Source of the DNA: Chitinophagaceae bacterium
Lineage (GTDB): Bacteria; Bacteroidota; Bacteroidia; Chitinophagales; Chitinophagaceae
Direction of reading: 5' to 3'
NCBI GenBank assembly: GCA_004299085.1
Contig: SCQV01000247.1
Span: 1 to 39,890, forward strand
Length of the DNA stretch: 39,890 bases
The position numbers were made by a program, and so were the translations under genes. Below are positions 24,793 to 39,890 of the stretch, one piece after another. The notes below the pieces were generated by a model. It was not told where the DNA came from and ran no database searches. It saw only the letters and a list, made by a program, of their open reading frames with translations. The stretch's first letter is position 1. The number at the start of each line of letters is the position of its first letter.

Positions 24793-25179
24793 TTATTTTA
24801 CTTTAAACCAAAGTGGAGAATCATCTTTTAGTTCTCCATTGTAGTTAATCAAAAGCTCCTCTCCTTTTTTGATGTCCCGGAGTGTTCTGATAATCATACT
24901 ATGTTTTTCAAAGTCCACTTCATGATCGCAGTTTGGCTTATAAGAATGATTATACACAGAACAATAACCCAGCGCCACACAGGTTTTTACCTGTCTCTCG
25001 CCCCACACGAACAGATAATTATGCAGTTCGGTGTTATCGGTTTTATCCGTATCTTTCTTAGATAAAACTACTACCGGAGATTCTTCTATTTTTGTTCCTT
25101 TGGGAATAGGTTCGCTGGTAAACACTCCGCGTCCTTTTCCTTTTACATCTTTTACGTAAAGGGATGGCTTGATCTTCAT
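24793..25179 (-). CDS. SET domain-containing protein
   Basis: A 128-residue protein that is almost entirely a SET domain. GKGRGVFTSEPIPKG is the N-terminal strand pair, NHSYKPNC (77-84) is the pseudoknot motif that binds S-adenosylmethionine, and KKGEELLINYNGE (105-117) holds the catalytic Tyr. SET proteins methylate lysines; bacterial members are sporadic and their targets mostly unknown. A TACTTTTG box on the minus strand (25218 to 25211) may be its -7 element. It is coupled to the phosphoesterase gene and divergent from mutL. Confidence 0.87.
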   Translation of the reverse strand: MKIKPSLYVKDVKGKGRGVFTSEPIPKGTKIEESPVVVLSKKDTDKTDNTELHNYLFVWGERQVKTCVALGYCSVYNHSYKPNCDHEVDFEKHSMIIRTLRDIKKGEELLINYNGELKDDSPLWFKVK

Positions 25180-34457: not shown

Positions 34458-34913
34458 ATGGAAAAAGAAAAGAGGCATACACATTACTCAAATGACGAAG
34501 AATTGACTTCTTTTGTTAAAGAACCAGGAGGAAGCTACTCTCTGCAGCCTTATGATTTAATTGGTATTTCCAGGTTTGGGATTCTTAAAAAGACGCTTTC
34601 TCTACTTGCTAAAAGATTATCTTTTACCACGAACGAAATTTCGAAAATATTACACATATCTGAGAGAACCCTTCAGCGTTATCATGCTGAAGACAGGCTG
34701 TCACCCGACATTTCTGAAAGGACCTTGATGCTTGCAAAACTTTATGAGAGAGGCATTGAAATCTTTCATGATGCTGCCAATTTTACCGACTGGTTGCGTA
34801 CCCCGCTTCCGGCTTTTAATTACCAGCCGCCTATTCAATTATTAGATACTTCATTTGGCTTTCAACTCATAGAAGATGAGTTAGGTCGCATAGAATACGG
34901 CGTATTCGCTTAA
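34458..34913 (+). CDS. Xre/MbcA/ParS-type antitoxin (DUF2384)
   Basis: A 151-residue antitoxin. Residues about 48-85 hold an Xre-like helix-turn-helix (LSFTTNEISKILHISERTLQ, then RYH). The C-terminal domain (about 97-151) is the toxin-binding part, with FTDWLRTPLPAF, LLDTSFGFQLIEDELGRIEY and GVFA, the Xre/MbcA/ParS consensus. It neutralises the RES toxin encoded 14 nt downstream and probably represses its own promoter through the inverted repeat at 34418-34454. Confidence 0.9.
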   Translation: MEKEKRHTHYSNDEELTSFVKEPGGSYSLQPYDLIGISRFGILKKTLSLLAKRLSFTTNEISKILHISERTLQRYHAEDRLSPDISERTLMLAKLYERGIEIFHDAANFTDWLRTPLPAFNYQPPIQLLDTSFGFQLIEDELGRIEYGVFA

Positions 34914-34927
34914 ATACCGACCCTTTC

Positions 34928-35389
34928 ATGGAAGTATTCAGAATTGCGAAAAACAAATACATACATGATCTTGCCGGCACAGGGTCCAGATTAAATGGCG
35001 GGAGATGGAACAGTAAGGGCGAGTCAGTAGTATATATGAGCAGCTATCGCTCGCTGGCAGTGTTGGAAATGATAGTTCACGTCCCTCAGAAGAACCTGAC
35101 AAACGATTATCAAATAGCCACTATTCATATTCCGGAGAAAATAAAAGTAAAGACTCTTTCTATTGAAATGTTACCTGAACATTGGCGAACCGTTACAATA
35201 AGTCCACGTTTGCAGGCCATTGGCGATCAATGGTTAAAAGAGAGTAAGTATTGCGTATTTCAGGTTCCTTCGGTTGTCATTCCGCAGGAATGGAATTATA
35301 TTATTAATCCAGCGCATCCTGAAGCGAAGGATATTATGATTATAAAAACCGAAAATCTTGTATTAGATGAGCGGTTTATTGAATCCTGA
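34928..35389 (+). CDS. RES-domain NAD-degrading toxin
   Basis: A 153-residue RES-domain protein. The family motif is intact: FRIAK with Arg5, SRLNGGRWNSKG (GGRWN at 24-28), VVYMSSYRSLAVLE with Tyr36 and Glu47, and a closing DERF. RES toxins hydrolyse NAD+ when free of antitoxin and arrest growth. All the motif residues appear present, so the toxin is probably active. It forms a two-gene operon with the Xre antitoxin. Confidence 0.92.
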   Translation: MEVFRIAKNKYIHDLAGTGSRLNGGRWNSKGESVVYMSSYRSLAVLEMIVHVPQKNLTNDYQIATIHIPEKIKVKTLSIEMLPEHWRTVTISPRLQAIGDQWLKESKYCVFQVPSVVIPQEWNYIINPAHPEAKDIMIIKTENLVLDERFIES

Positions 35390-35648
35390 AATATAAAAAA
35401 GCATTTAGCTTAAGAAGCCAAAGGATGATGATTGAAATAAGGAGAAACCCATACACTTATTACCAGCCTTGTGAAAGCTATCGCCTTGAAAGTACGGCCC
35501 GGCCACTTTCTACCAGACCATGCACTATAAGCCAAGGCCCTTCAACCTAATAAATCTGAATCCCCCAATAAAACGCCTCCCTGTTTCAAATGATAGTCAG
35601 ACTTACGTCTTAAAATCGGAATAACCAAGTTGGATTAAGAAGAAAATA
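35390..35648. other. Intergenic stretch, no gene supported
   Basis: Together with the promoter that follows, this makes a gap of about 308 bases between the RES toxin and the next gene. There is one open segment of about 45 codons with no start codon (around 35498-35633), not recognised and too short to call. I see no terminator with a T-run. Confidence 0.5.
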
Positions 35649-35697
35649 TTTGGTGGATCAATATCTTTTATTAACTTTGTATTACAAAGTACTTTTT
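35649..35697 (+). promoter_or_regulatory. Consensus promoter with overlapping palindromic operator
   Basis: TTTG (35649-35652), 19 nt, TAACTTTG (35672-35679): a full Bacteroidota promoter. The palindrome ACTTTGTATTACAAAGT (35674-35690) overlaps the -7 box, and AAAGTACTTT adds a second overlapping palindrome. The ATG follows at 35698. A closely similar sequence precedes creD. Confidence 0.75.
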
Positions 35698-36303
35698 ATG
35701 AAAAAAGAACCTGAACAAACTTTATCTGATATTCGTCAGCTTATGGAACGATCCACCCGTTTCCGTTCCATTAATGGATTCAGTTTTGTTGCGGCAGGGA
35801 TTTGTGGTTTATTGGGGATGGCATGGATCCATATCCTGATCATGCAAACGAAGACAATGAGGCCTTATCCGCAACTGAATAGTCAAAACCTGGTCAATCA
35901 TATAGTGATTGCATCCGTTTGTACCCTTCTTGCTGCCATAATATGCGGATTTTTCTTTACCTGGTTCAAAATGCGAAAAAGAAATCTTTCTCTATGGGAG
36001 GCAGTAGTGCGCAAAGTGACGATCAATTTTATCATCCCATTGATTACAGGGGGAATTTTAATCATTGGGATGATATTTTATTACGAATACCAATTCATCT
36101 CGACAAGCTGCCTTCTTTTTTATGGACTTTCTTTGGTGAATGCAAGTCATTACACATTAAAAGAAATCCGCTACCTGGGGATTTGTGAAATTCTTATTGG
36201 CATTATTTGCTTATTAACCGGATATGATCTTTTTTCATTAATAATAGGATTTGGTGTGTTGAATATTCTATCCGGATTAACTATTTGGTATAAATACCGC
36301 TGA
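35698..36303 (+). CDS. Membrane protein of the creD cluster, unnamed
   Basis: A 201-residue protein starting at MKKEPEQTLSDIRQLMERST, directly after the operator. About five or six membrane helices follow (FSFVAAGICGLLGMAWIHIL, IVIASVCTLLAAIICGFFFT, FIIPLITGGILIIGMIFYY, LGICEILIGIICLLTGYDLF, LIIGFGVLNILSGLTIW). The polar N-terminal helix may lie in the cytoplasm. I do not know a named function. It shares an operator with creD and lies 12 nt upstream of the winged-helix regulator, so the three genes form one regulatory unit. Confidence 0.78.
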   Translation: MKKEPEQTLSDIRQLMERSTRFRSINGFSFVAAGICGLLGMAWIHILIMQTKTMRPYPQLNSQNLVNHIVIASVCTLLAAIICGFFFTWFKMRKRNLSLWEAVVRKVTINFIIPLITGGILIIGMIFYYEYQFISTSCLLFYGLSLVNASHYTLKEIRYLGICEILIGIICLLTGYDLFSLIIGFGVLNILSGLTIWYKYR

Positions 36304-36315
36304 GAACATTGTAAA

Positions 36316-36621
36316 ATGATTATGAAGAATCCGATAGAAAATTTAAATAAAGTATTTGAAAGTCGCATCCGGCTGGGTGTGATGAGTGCTCTGATGGTGA
36401 ATGAAGAAATGAATTTCAATGACTTAAAACAACTACTTGAAGTTACTGATGGCAACCTTGCTACCCATCTCAACATGCTTGAAGAAAACAGTTATATCAA
36501 AGTGCATAAAGGATTTATCGGGAAAAAGACCAATACCACTTATTCTGTTACTAAAGCAGGAGAAAAATCTTTTAAAAATCATTTGAATGCTTTGGAAAAA
36601 ATGATACATAATATTGAGTAA
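36316..36621 (+). CDS. Winged-helix transcriptional regulator
   Basis: A 101-residue single-domain regulator of the HTH_34 (ArsR/MarR-like) type. RIRLGVMSALMVNEEMNFND, LLEVTDGNLATHLNMLEENS (recognition helix) and GKKTNTTYSVTKAGEKSF (wing) are clear. An alternative start is ATG 36322. It probably binds as a dimer to the ACTTTG-type palindromes upstream of the first gene of this operon and upstream of creD. That target is inferred from position. Confidence 0.85.
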   Translation: MIMKNPIENLNKVFESRIRLGVMSALMVNEEMNFNDLKQLLEVTDGNLATHLNMLEENSYIKVHKGFIGKKTNTTYSVTKAGEKSFKNHLNALEKMIHNIE

Positions 36622-36636
36622 ATTTTTTTATTATCT

Positions 36637-36660
36637 ACTTTGTTATAAAAAGTACTTTTT
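36637..36660 (+). promoter_or_regulatory. Second operator, upstream of creD
   Basis: ACTTTGTTATAAAAAGT (36637-36653) followed by ACTTTTT directly up to the creD ATG. It matches the 35674 operator in layout and in its last 12 bases (AGTACTTTTTAT plus G of ATG), with one mismatch in the palindrome arm. A weak -7 (CTACTTTG) overlaps it. Confidence 0.65.
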
Positions 36661-37989
36661 ATGGAAAAAAAATTAAATAGTTTTTGGCAGCAGAACCGTT
36701 TAGTCATTAAGGGAGCATTCATTGGCATTTTAACTCTTTTGTTATTGATACCAATGGCTTTTATTTCTTTTCTTGTGAACGACCGAGAGCAACGACACAA
36801 CGCGGCATACAAGGAAGTCAGCAGTAAATGGGCTGCACCCCAAACACTTACAGGACCTGTTTTGGTAATCCCTTACCAGGTTTCATCTAAAGATGAGAAA
36901 GGCAACCTGCAAACTGAAATAAAACAAGCTTATTTTCTGCCCGATTCCCTGCAGATAAATGGAGCTATCCAGCCTGAAAAAAGATACCGGGGAATCTATG
37001 AGGTCATTTTATACCGTTCCAGTCTGACTATGCAGGGAAAGTTCAATGAGCTTAATTCAGGCGATTTAAAAATTGCTCATAATGACTGGCTGCCAGGACA
37101 AGCATATCTTCTTCTCGGGCTTGATGACATGCGTGGCATTGAGAATCAGGTTGCATTGAAATGGAATGATTCATTAAAATACTTCAACCCGGGAATTCCC
37201 GAAAATCAAGTAATGAAGGTAGGCCTATACGTGCCTTTGCCACTTGACATTTCTACCTTTGATAAAGGATCCTTTGGTTTCAATATCCATCTTAAGTTGA
37301 AAGGATCGGGAGAATTAAATATAGTTCCTGCCGGAAAAATTACACTGGTATCTATCCATTCTCCATGGAACACTCCCAGTTTCATCGGAAGCTTTCTCCC
37401 AGATGAACATACTGTCAATAGTAAAGGGTTTAATGCACATTGGACCATTTTCAATTTGAACAGGAACTTTCCTCAACATTGGTCGGAAGGCAATTACGAC
37501 CTGGATCAATCCAAATTTGGTGTCAGTCTCATGTTGCCGGTGGATATGTATCAAAAGACTATGCGATGCATCAAATATGCGATCCTCATTATTGCGCTCA
37601 CTTTTACGGTATTTTTTCTAATAGAAACTTCACAAAAAAATGCTGTTCATCCATTTCAGTATATTCTTATCGGATTGGCGCTTTGTATTTTTTACACCCT
37701 GCTACTTTCTCTTTCGGAATACCTGAATTTTACATCGGCTTATGCCATATCGGCCATAGCAACTATCGGACTGATCAGCGTTTATGCTTCATGGGTTTTC
37801 AAGGGCAAAAAAATACCCATTCTGGTTTGTGTCACCATGCTTATGCTGTACAGTTTTATTTTTGTGCTTGCCCAACTACAAGATCTGTCCCTGATGATCG
37901 GAAGCATAGGATTATTTATGGTATTAGCGTTGCTGATGTATTTTTCACGAAAGATGAATAGAGAAAATTATTTAGCCACAAAGCCGTAA
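36661..37989 (+). CDS. creD: Inner membrane protein CreD
   Basis: A 442-residue CreD-family protein. One N-terminal helix (GAFIGILTLLLLIPMAFISF), a periplasmic domain with SSKWAAPQTLTGPVLVIPYQ and QAYFLPDSLQINGAIQPEKR, then five or more C-terminal helices from about residue 305. In E. coli CreD belongs to the CreBC regulon and affects colicin tolerance and envelope integrity; in other bacteria it is linked to beta-lactam response. Here it is controlled, by inference, by the winged-helix regulator just upstream instead of a two-component system. Confidence 0.92.
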   Translation: MEKKLNSFWQQNRLVIKGAFIGILTLLLLIPMAFISFLVNDREQRHNAAYKEVSSKWAAPQTLTGPVLVIPYQVSSKDEKGNLQTEIKQAYFLPDSLQINGAIQPEKRYRGIYEVILYRSSLTMQGKFNELNSGDLKIAHNDWLPGQAYLLLGLDDMRGIENQVALKWNDSLKYFNPGIPENQVMKVGLYVPLPLDISTFDKGSFGFNIHLKLKGSGELNIVPAGKITLVSIHSPWNTPSFIGSFLPDEHTVNSKGFNAHWTIFNLNRNFPQHWSEGNYDLDQSKFGVSLMLPVDMYQKTMRCIKYAILIIALTFTVFFLIETSQKNAVHPFQYILIGLALCIFYTLLLSLSEYLNFTSAYAISAIATIGLISVYASWVFKGKKIPILVCVTMLMLYSFIFVLAQLQDLSLMIGSIGLFMVLALLMYFSRKMNRENYLATKP

Positions 37990-38221
37990 TTAATTCCAAA
38001 TCAATAATAGTATTGGAAAGCAGAATTATATCTTTGTAAAGGGAAATAGATTTCCAGGAGGAAGTGTGCCGTTTTAAATCTGATGTTGTTTCTGGGAAAA
38101 TTTAATTGGACTGAATAGTCGGTTCTATACATCTGCCTTTTAAAGGATTATTCGGAAGACCATCATTGAATTAATTCTTTTGATATCTGCCTTGATTTGG
38201 TGACTTCGCTAAATGTAATAA
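37990..38221. other. Intergenic gap between convergent creD and namZ
   Basis: About 230 bases with no supported gene. It has a TATCTTTG box (38029-38036) without a proper -33 element, and a palindrome CCTTTTAAAGG (38140-38150). No clear terminator for either convergent gene. Confidence 0.4.
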
Positions 38222-39394
38222 TCAATAAATTAAGTAAGGTAAGATTTTCATTTCCCATAGTGAATTATCCAATTTAGTTTCAGGTATCTCGCCTTTCTTT
38301 AATTTTCTCAAAGACTCCCTGACACCAAGTAGGTTATCAAGATGTTTTTCCCCGCTTGGGTTAACAGTTGTTTTGTATAGACGTTCAGTACACTCTTGAG
38401 GGTATATAGATAAAAGAAGGTGAATCAGTTGCAATCCGGCACTTACCGGCCGGAATATAAATGTATCTGTGATTGATAATTTTAGCCCATGACATATTTC
38501 GTTTGCATATAACCCTGATGTGGGCACATACCAGACAGGTTTACTTTTTAAACCTGCCACCGATAACGAAAAGAATTTGTTTTGTAACTCTGTCGCATTA
38601 ATCCATGGTGCACCAAAAATTTTAAATGGAGTTGAAGTCCCTCTTCCTTCATTTACATTAATCCCCTCTAATAATCCCATGCCGGGATAAAGTAATGCCG
38701 TTTCCATATCCGTAATGGCAGGTGATGGCGAAACAAATGGCCATACACCAGTTTGCTTTCTTTCCCAGTTTTGCAACCTGATAACTTCGAGATCAATATT
38801 TTTTATTCTTGTAGCTGAAAAAAAACTTGCAAGTTCACCCAATGTGCAGCTATGTCGAATAGGGATATTCCATCGCCCAATAAAAGAGGTCATTCCTCTT
38901 TCATCTATCATTGGGCCTTCTGATAAATGAATGTCTCCGCTGACAGGATTGGGGCGGTCAAGAAGAATGAATTTTTTGTGATGTGCGCTACAGGACTCCA
39001 TTACATAAGTCATTGTCCATAAATAAGTATAGAAACGGCAACCAATATCGGGGATGTCAAATAACATGATATCTATATCAGTAAGATCATTTTTATGAGG
39101 CATTATTTTTTCTGAATACAAACTGACTACAGGGAGCTTTGTAATTGGATCTATGACATTCTTCTGGTAAGCTCCATCTATCCCCCTTGCCGTTAATCCA
39201 TGTTCCGGAGAAAATAACTTTATGATTTTGAATCCTGCACTGAGCAATGCCATGCGGCTTAATTCTCCGTCAGTAGTCGTTGCTGCATTGTTTGTGACTA
39301 ACCCGAAGCGTGTATTTTGAAATTTTGTTTTATATTGAAGAAAAAGATCAATCCCAAAGCGTATTTCTTTGCTTTCATTGAATCGTTCCGGCAT
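38222..39394 (-). CDS. namZ: DUF1343/GH171 exo-beta-N-acetylmuramidase NamZ-like
   Basis: A protein of about 390 residues covering the whole NamZ fold: GIDLFLQYKTKFQNTRFGLV, NNAATT, LFSPEHGLTARGIDGAYQKN, LFDIPDIGCRFYTYLWTM, LLDRPNPVSGD, EGINVNEGRGTSTPF and FGAPWI. NamZ removes N-acetylmuramic acid from the non-reducing end of peptidoglycan fragments. ATG 39394 is taken as start, 4 nt after the murQ stop; GTG 39406 would overlap murQ. Neither start gives a signal peptide, which is unusual for an enzyme normally exported. It is coupled to murQ in a recycling operon. Confidence 0.87.
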   Translation of the reverse strand: MPERFNESKEIRFGIDLFLQYKTKFQNTRFGLVTNNAATTTDGELSRMALLSAGFKIIKLFSPEHGLTARGIDGAYQKNVIDPITKLPVVSLYSEKIMPHKNDLTDIDIMLFDIPDIGCRFYTYLWTMTYVMESCSAHHKKFILLDRPNPVSGDIHLSEGPMIDERGMTSFIGRWNIPIRHSCTLGELASFFSATRIKNIDLEVIRLQNWERKQTGVWPFVSPSPAITDMETALLYPGMGLLEGINVNEGRGTSTPFKIFGAPWINATELQNKFFSLSVAGLKSKPVWYVPTSGLYANEICHGLKLSITDTFIFRPVSAGLQLIHLLLSIYPQECTERLYKTTVNPSGEKHLDNLLGVRESLRKLKKGEIPETKLDNSLWEMKILPYLIY

Positions 39395-39398
39395 GAAC

Positions 39399-39890
39399 TT
39401 ATCCACTTTTTTTATTGGTCTTAATTAAATTTATCACTTTCTTTACACTTCCTAATTCAAGTAACAAGGATTTTATATAATTATAATCTGTAACCCTCGT
39501 TTCTTCTATGATCATTCTTATTCCCCGATCTATTAGTTTCTCATTACTTAATCGCATATTCACCATTTTATTATCCTCAACACGTCCCAACTTTATCATA
39601 ATCGTAGTAGAGATCATGTTGAGTACTAATTTTTGTGCGGTACCGCTCTTCATACGAGTACTGCCCGTTAAAAATTCCGGCCCTACCGTGATAACCACCG
39701 GGAAATCTGAATGAAATGTTATTGGCGATTCAGGATTGCAGGTAATACAACCAGTAAGAATCTCTTTCTCCCTGCATGACTTTAGTGCGCCTATTACATA
39801 CGGGGTGGTTCCACTTGCCGCTATACCAATTACAGAATCTTTTGCATTAATATTATATTTTCGTAAGTCCTGCCATCCCTGCGTTGTATC
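39399..39890 (-). CDS. murQ: N-acetylmuramic acid 6-phosphate etherase, 5' partial
   Basis: The frame is open from the window edge (39890), so the N-terminal part lies beyond it; the GTG at 39698 is internal. The visible 163 residues include the SIS-domain segment DSVIGIAASGTTPYVIGALK and the MurQ signature VGPEFLTGSTRMKSGTAQK, LNMISTTIMIKLG and NEKLIDRGIRMI. MurQ cleaves the lactyl ether of MurNAc-6-phosphate to give GlcNAc-6-phosphate. It precedes namZ, so MurNAc released by NamZ can be channelled to MurQ after phosphorylation. Confidence 0.93.
   Translation of the reverse strand, partial: DTTQGWQDLRKYNINAKDSVIGIAASGTTPYVIGALKSCREKEILTGCITCNPESPITFHSDFPVVITVGPEFLTGSTRMKSGTAQKLVLNMISTTIMIKLGRVEDNKMVNMRLSNEKLIDRGIRMIIEETRVTDYNYIKSLLLELGSVKKVINLIKTNKKSG

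Follow-up and report, generated by a model that had tools for sequence, protein, structure and literature searches.

A Chitinophagaceae bacterium carries, one after the other on the + strand of a 39,890-nucleotide contig, a gene for a membrane protein, a gene for a winged-helix regulator of the HTH_34 family and creD. The contig (C175; hereafter the window, i.e., the whole stretch that was analyzed) belongs to an assembly of 4.98 Mb in 625 contigs that is 95% complete. A sequence-only reading had reported this gene succession together with two palindromes, and genes, palindromes and coordinates all proved correct (sequence, PF13601, PF06123). Taken as a whole, the locus and its relatives are best explained as a one-component autorepressor module with a membrane partner, a reading that we regard as probable. 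Its parts differ in strength: from the sequence evidence, autorepression by the HTH_34 protein appears very probable, and release of the repressor by the membrane partner, suggested by analogy, is tentative. In order along the + strand, the module consists of the following elements.

35649..35652, + strand: -33 element TTTG of promoter 1, read from the sequence; TTG kept in 66 of 77 orthologous upstream sites
35672..35679, + strand: -7 box TAACTTTG of promoter 1, read from the sequence; consensus as given in passages of PMC7366714
35674..35695, + strand: operator 1, ACTTTG-N5-CAAAG-TA-CTTT, an exact match, shared before the membrane gene by 77 of 80 named relatives
35698..36303, + strand: membrane protein of 201 amino acids (aa) with an N-terminal helix and six transmembrane (TM) helices predicted from an AlphaFold2 model; putative sensor or anti-repressor
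36316..36621, + strand: HTH_34 winged-helix regulator of ∼100 aa (PF13601, 97.9 bits; model; alignment)
36622..36636, + strand: T-rich tract that separates the regulator stop codon from operator 2; seven T at 36623-36629
36637..36658, + strand: operator 2, ACTTTG-N5-AAAAG-TA-CTTT, with one half-site mismatch; second site in 70 of 80 named relatives
36661..37989, + strand: creD, inner membrane protein (PF06123, 502.6 bits; NF008712 equivalog, 482 bits)

The overlap of operator 1 (palindrome ACTTTGTATTACAAAGT at 35674-35690, no mismatch) with the -7 box of a consensus promoter was confirmed as TTTG-N19-TAACTTTG, with a spacing of 19 nt and the TTTG of the -7 box inside the left half-site. Likewise, a near copy precedes creD (ACTTTGTTATAAAAAGT at 36637-36653, one mismatch), and both sites lead into AGTACTTTTT-ATG. 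Promoter 1 fits the primary-sigma consensus of Bacteroidota, given in passages of PMC7366714 as TAnnTTTG at -7 and TTTG near -33; promoter 2 is only a partial match. Scans of positions 35300-38300 returned 8 sigma-70-type promoter sites versus 11.1 expected, and no terminator, the T-rich tract included.

To judge the motif, we compared the best 80 of 512 regulator relatives, which come from Chitinophagaceae genera or Bacteroidota/Sphingobacteriales bins (L160-L239; hereafter the named relatives). An operator with at most one mismatch preceded the membrane gene in 77 of them. The raw count was 78; since the site at -1217 in L185 has no CTTT arm, it was discounted. The loci without an accepted upstream site were thus L194, where the contig end is too near, L162, which has a two-mismatch site, and L185, which has none. 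A second operator, again with at most one mismatch, lay 15 to 21 bp past the regulator stop in 70 of the 80. Counted from the second operator, positions -15 to -9 were T in 97 to 100% of these 70 loci, so that a run of at least 7 T directly follows the regulator stop.

Stacking of 77 upstream, 70 second and 44 dispersed sites revealed a full element, [AG]CTTTG-N5-CAAAG-YR-CTTT, usually followed by T, that is longer than the palindrome first noted. Each base of the CTTT arm was kept in at least 76/77 upstream and at least 69/70 second sites, and the preceding YR dinucleotide (TG, TA, CA or CG) in 77/77 and 69/70, respectively; neither the arm nor the YR step had played a part in selecting these two sets. 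The dispersed sites, which had been chosen using the CTTT arm and T as the first base of the dinucleotide, carried TG or TA in 43 of 44 cases. Because the arm and the YR step are constant in the stacked sites, the operator is, as judged from this alignment, three-armed: an inverted pair with a 5-bp gap plus a second inverted pair, CAAAG/CTTT, across the YR step. On one reading, the three arms would represent two overlapping dimer sites. In each of the 77 upstream sites, the distance from the operator start to the first ATG was 22 to 28 nt; relative to the same point, a TTG began at -25, -24 or -23 in 66 of them (-25 to -22 in 26/44 dispersed sites). Counting the G of TTTG as -7, the transcription start is predicted to lie inside the CAAAG arm. 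Both the -7 box and the predicted start would therefore lie under the operator, where repressors classically bind, and this layout strongly supports repression.

The conservation of the motif in relatives argues that it is not a product of chance. Loose matches are uninformative, since the 17-mer with up to 3 mismatches occurred 15 times in the window versus 26.7 times expected from shuffles, i.e., without enrichment. For the extended motif CTTTGN5CAAAGYRCTTT, ∼0.016 exact matches are expected per 5 Mb (from composition at 40% GC). The organism's own genome contained one exact and one 1-mismatch match, which are the two window sites; the remaining 24 matches all had two mismatches, and a reversed control pattern gave 18. 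The two sites in the window are the only good ones in this genome. A one-mismatch match to the palindrome, ACTATGTTTTTCAAAGT at 24898-24914, lies within an opposite-strand open reading frame (ORF) of 128 aa that is SET-domain-like by eye. Other palindromes of the genome, ACTTTGTGGCACAAAGT (L002 and L004, near copy L007; contigs C10, C138 and C180), were set aside as a repeated intergenic element that is apparently unrelated to the operator.

Scanning Bacteroidota for the motif, as the sequence-only reading had suggested, revealed that its presence is tightly linked to that of the regulator. The 22-mer ACTTTGN5CAAAGTNCTTT was found in 93 of 147 same-family genomes, and the 21-mer CTTTGN5CAAAGYRCTTT in 98 of 395 phylum-wide genomes; the reversed controls gave 1 and 4 matches, respectively, among those listed. 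With regulator matches at E 1e-30 or better, the 147 genomes comprised 90 with regulator and motif, 8 with the regulator only, 3 with the motif only and 46 with neither (p 4.5e-26). With matches to about E 6e-25, the corresponding numbers for the 395 genomes were 93, 36, 5 and 261 (p 2e-53); neither p-value corrects for relatedness among the genomes. The three family genomes that have the motif only (G066, G082 and G135) are drafts of 83, 91 and 69% completeness. In G082, the membrane gene of the module itself follows one of the sites near the end of a contig (L125). Among 150 listed same-family sites (of more than 150 present), 105 had a listed regulator gene no more than 3 kb away and in every case shared its strand, 69 lying upstream and 36 downstream of it, at -625 to -1126 or +303 to +399 with a sole exception at +2180. 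For the phylum draw, 22 of the 150 listed sites, which were rows of nine same-family genomes, were left out (same-family G541 was kept); 94 of the remaining 128 lay within 3.5 kb of a regulator gene, 94/94 on its strand, and 34 lay elsewhere.

From the position and strand of the sites, the co-occurrence, and a paralogous subfamily that lacks both partner and operator, we infer that the HTH_34 protein binds the operator. This subfamily is represented in the same genome by L013 (contig C426), which likewise has a two-gene layout of a 193-aa membrane protein and an HTH_34 protein with an upstream palindrome, GTTTGTATTACAAAC, but whose membrane partner belongs to a different family. None of 31 L013-type loci (30 distinct genes; one locus offered only about 250 bp upstream) had the module's membrane family directly upstream, and the module's operator was seen in 0 of 30. 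By eye, the HTH_34 gene of L013 sits between two other membrane-protein genes. Its palindrome also occurs in a sister genome; among 30 loci, the GTTTGTATTACAAAC type was limited to these two genomes, and the idea that all HTH_34 modules bear such palindromes was abandoned.

The regulator matches PF13601 over its full length (profile 1-80 of 80; 97.9 bits, cut-off 27), and most aligned orthologues begin level with the ATG at 36322 (MKNPI...). Its structure model reached a predicted local distance difference test score (pLDDT) of 90.6, and the closest solved structure was 1ub9, i.e., PH1061, an HTH_34 protein of the same sequence family and fold. That PDB entry names it only as a regulator homologue, and the literature searched describes no operator, partner or regulon like those of the module for it. 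MarR, PadR and ArsR proteins are more distant structural neighbors. With ∼100 aa, the regulator contains no cysteine and no added sensor domain.

The membrane protein matched no Pfam or NCBIfam family over cut-off. Its AlphaFold2 model (60 aligned sequences; mean pLDDT, 87.9) has a helix at 5-21 followed by six longer ones, with pLDDT of 62 to 65 over the first 20 residues. If the N terminus is placed in the cytosol, conservation, measured as the mean share of the commonest residue, is high in the predicted cytosolic N-terminal helix (0.75) and linker (0.95) and low in the predicted periplasmic loops 1 (0.22) and 3 (0.26). A fold search against the PDB yielded nothing at E 0.001 or better. The best VIA-align hit was TMEM45A (Z 9.8; root mean square deviation, 4.4; 167 aligned); among helical bundles, such a match may reflect only a common arrangement. 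A sequence comparison with solved structures gave one match at E 0.071 and none that was convincing. The gene immediately before the regulator encoded a member of this family in 79 of the 80 named loci, with a contig end as the sole miss, as it did in 17 of the 21 best loci from outside the family and in 18 of 20 neighborhoods of other families; the last two sets have nine genomes in common. The original reading is supported in its single regulator and its two matching operators, with operator 1 on the -7 box, and the membrane protein proves to be a constant partner. Among the misses, the membrane gene lay slightly further upstream in L300, L301 and L303, and L345 offered only about 0.6 kb of upstream sequence. 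The intervening ORF of L303 resembles a Peptidase_C92 protein that a dispersed operator leads in another genome (L329). A seemingly fused membrane-regulator protein in G019 (a long frame) was rejected, as it represents two genes in different frames.

Which genes the module controls differs between genomes. After the regulator in the named loci (viewed up to 5 kb, some shortened by contig ends), we found CreD in 59/80, DgkA in 53/80 and DUF1361 in 43/80, all on the regulator's strand. Where operator 2 was present, the next gene was co-directional within 250 bp in 69/70 loci, and where it was absent, in 6/10. At the downstream ends of the named loci lies a large gene, TolB-like and outer-membrane-type by eye, with 48 cluster members; among the members listed, it is on the opposite strand. 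Away from any listed regulator gene, 45 of the 150 family sites were dispersed (L100-L144); 42 of them had an ORF of at least 50 aa just downstream. For two of the 45 (L125 and, by eye, L129), the gene that follows is probably the first gene of the module itself, on a broken contig. Of the 42 first genes, at least 27 belong to clusters of three or more members, as follows.

Membrane protein of ∼170 aa with YGYDWLAFAH: 6 first genes
250-aa protein with SLQAWQLGETSDG: 4 first genes; no family match, ferritin-like only by impression
XrtN-VIT protein: 4 first genes; TIGR04477 at 217 bits on a 300-residue piece, under the cut-off of 250
DUF2809 protein: 4 first genes
Protein of ∼100 aa with MQFTxEVxW: 4 first genes
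DgkA: 2 first genes
DUF1361 protein: 1 first gene
Radical SAM protein: 1 first gene
One further cluster: 1 first gene

Seven of the nine clusters also had members after the regulator in named loci. The same clusters were therefore found within the module in one genome and dispersed under the operator in another, as a single regulon would give. By a simple hydropathy scan, at least two TM segments were predicted for 32/42 dispersed first genes versus 16/190 genes from the upstream flanks of named loci and 6/37 window genes. In other families, 20 of the 34 dispersed sites were examined and 17 had an ORF; the first genes of 14 of these 17 match proteins of the earlier set, including one CreD, one DUF4153 and seven MQFTxEVxW proteins. 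Judged from these predictions, the outputs of the regulon in relatives are mostly integral membrane proteins.

CreD of the window matches over its full length above the curated cut-offs (PF06123, 502.6 bits versus 23; NF008712, 482 bits versus 275). In 36 same-family genomes, 18 of the 19 with a CreD match over cut-off had creD no more than about 2.5 kb past the regulator, and 10 of the 28 with a strong regulator match had no CreD match. The creD neighborhoods examined in other families of the order (L015, L017, L018 and L036; 1.5-kb flanks) contained neither operator nor regulator. By these counts, creD is a frequent but not a universal target of the module. The proposal of a self-contained creD regulon thus appears to hold for this genome, which has only two good sites and whose single dgkA match has no same-strand operator within the 3.3 kb examined (best, 4 mismatches). 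It does not hold for the system, since some relatives with the regulator gave no CreD match and many operators there precede other genes.

The module shares its CreD output with the CreBC-CreD system of gammaproteobacteria, in which the regulators are a histidine kinase and a response regulator; the regulator linked to creD here is a one-component winged-helix protein. That the module stands in for CreBC, as the sequence-only reading suggested, is a conjecture. CreB recognizes the cre tag, TTCACN6TTCAC, which the window operator does not resemble. Two one-mismatch matches to this tag occurred in the window versus 2.5 expected, neither near creD, and neither creB nor creC was among the six genes scanned at the locus between 34458 and 39406.

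A model for how the module might work is SdpR/SdpI, which likewise comprises a small autorepressor encoded together with a polytopic membrane protein. According to passages of PMC1626106, SdpI of Bacillus subtilis responds to SdpC by sequestering SdpR at the membrane. By sequence comparison, the two systems are distinct: the window regulator scored 13 bits on the SdpR model NF033789 (cut-off, 100), and the membrane protein matched no SdpI family among the Pfam and NCBIfam matches listed to E 1. Moreover, the membrane gene comes first here, the regulon is wider in relatives, and no toxin gene was noticed beside the module.

Comparison across relatives strongly suggests that the HTH_34 protein binds [AG]CTTTG-N5-CAAAG-YR-CTTT and would thus occlude the -7 box and predicted start, silencing its own operon, the membrane-protein gene included, as well as an output operon further down, for which the sites of this genome indicate creD only. 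Less certainly, the co-encoded membrane protein would act as the sensor, its predicted cytosolic N-terminal helix and linker capturing or releasing the repressor upon membrane perturbation. The regulon would then turn on, as with SdpI and SdpR, and its outputs in relatives would also comprise DgkA, DUF1361, DUF2809, DUF4153 and XrtN-VIT proteins and others. A signal borne by the partner is attractive because the regulator is cysteine-free and too small for a separate sensor domain.

Alternatively, the HTH_34 protein could both repress and itself sense a signal (a lipid, small molecule or ion), with the membrane protein being merely a target. The dominance of membrane proteins among dispersed targets (32/42) would allow the partner to be one more of them, and many MarR, PadR and ArsR proteins, which are among the structural neighbors of the regulator, bind ligands directly. 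We consider this unlikely, as the membrane gene keeps its place directly or, in L300, L301 and L303, slightly further upstream of the regulator, unlike the other outputs, which vary from locus to locus, and as the regulator has only ∼100 aa, no cysteine and no extra domain. That the regulator activates these promoters, or acts on them in both ways, is improbable: winged-helix proteins can activate and a second promoter mostly without a -33 TTG might need help, but the operator occupies a polymerase-blocking place and promoter 1 is already near-consensus at -33 and -7. Least probable is that the motif serves a different, global regulator and adjoins HTH_34 genes by shared ancestry only. In its favor are the 45/150 listed family sites lying more than 3 kb from any listed regulator gene and the 5/98 motif-bearing phylum-draw genomes without a strong regulator match. 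Against it are the tight linkage of motif and regulator and the draft state of the motif-only family genomes, one of which has a site at the membrane gene of the module.

Several observations weigh against an autorepressor with a sensing membrane partner. The membrane protein may be only a target gene, and its topology is a predicted one. No membrane gene was found upstream in L302, within the stretch examined, or in L353. The second operator was missing or had two mismatches in 10/80 named loci, operator 2 of the window itself carries a half-site mismatch, and promoter 2 is less certain because second sites mostly lack the -33 TTG. In addition, a strong regulator match occurred without the exact motif in 8/98 same-family and 36/129 phylum-draw genomes. 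Five of these 36 genomes (G222, G337, G412, G418 and G449) hold a one-mismatch site; in G460, the sixth that was looked at, no exact site was seen.

As for the signal of the proposed autorepressor module, passages of PMC4689548 report that CreD of Stenotrophomonas maintains envelope integrity and that its creD promoter is not affected by beta-lactams (a section title there says "minimally"). Because of this lack of effect, membrane or lipid stress would be our better first guess, by analogy, than beta-lactams. Just upstream of the module lies a RES/Xre toxin-antitoxin pair (34458-35389; NF049845 and NF049844 over cut-offs). Beyond creD, the - strand encodes a NamZ-type exo-beta-N-acetylmuramidase (38222-39406) and a partial N-acetylmuramic acid 6-phosphate etherase cut at the window end (region 38222-39890), a muropeptide-recycling pair that adjoins creD and was not counted in the circuit.

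In the parts of the open-licence literature that were searched, we found no description of this regulator, motif or module, and regulation of creD was described only outside Bacteroidota. As judged from sequence comparison, the module is distinguished by its unnamed partner family, a three-arm operator placed on the -7 box, and a broad membrane-protein regulon in relatives. To our knowledge, the ways in which Bacteroidota perceive inner-membrane damage are poorly known. It is conceivable, though we would not yet expect it, that the module represents an ancient Bacteroidota membrane-stress regulon, in which a minimal winged-helix repressor, acting at a three-arm -7-box operator, is held or freed by a new family of membrane sensors; its effectors would be CreD, diacylglycerol kinase and a set of unnamed membrane proteins. 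If so, it would serve Bacteroidota as Psp, Cpx or sigma-E serve elsewhere. Through the common operator, DUF1361, DUF2809, DUF4153 and the XrtN-VIT protein become tied to a single response, which gives a functional lead on each of them, and the operator defined to the base, the regulator, the partner family and the target list make membrane-damage sensing testable in Chitinophaga.

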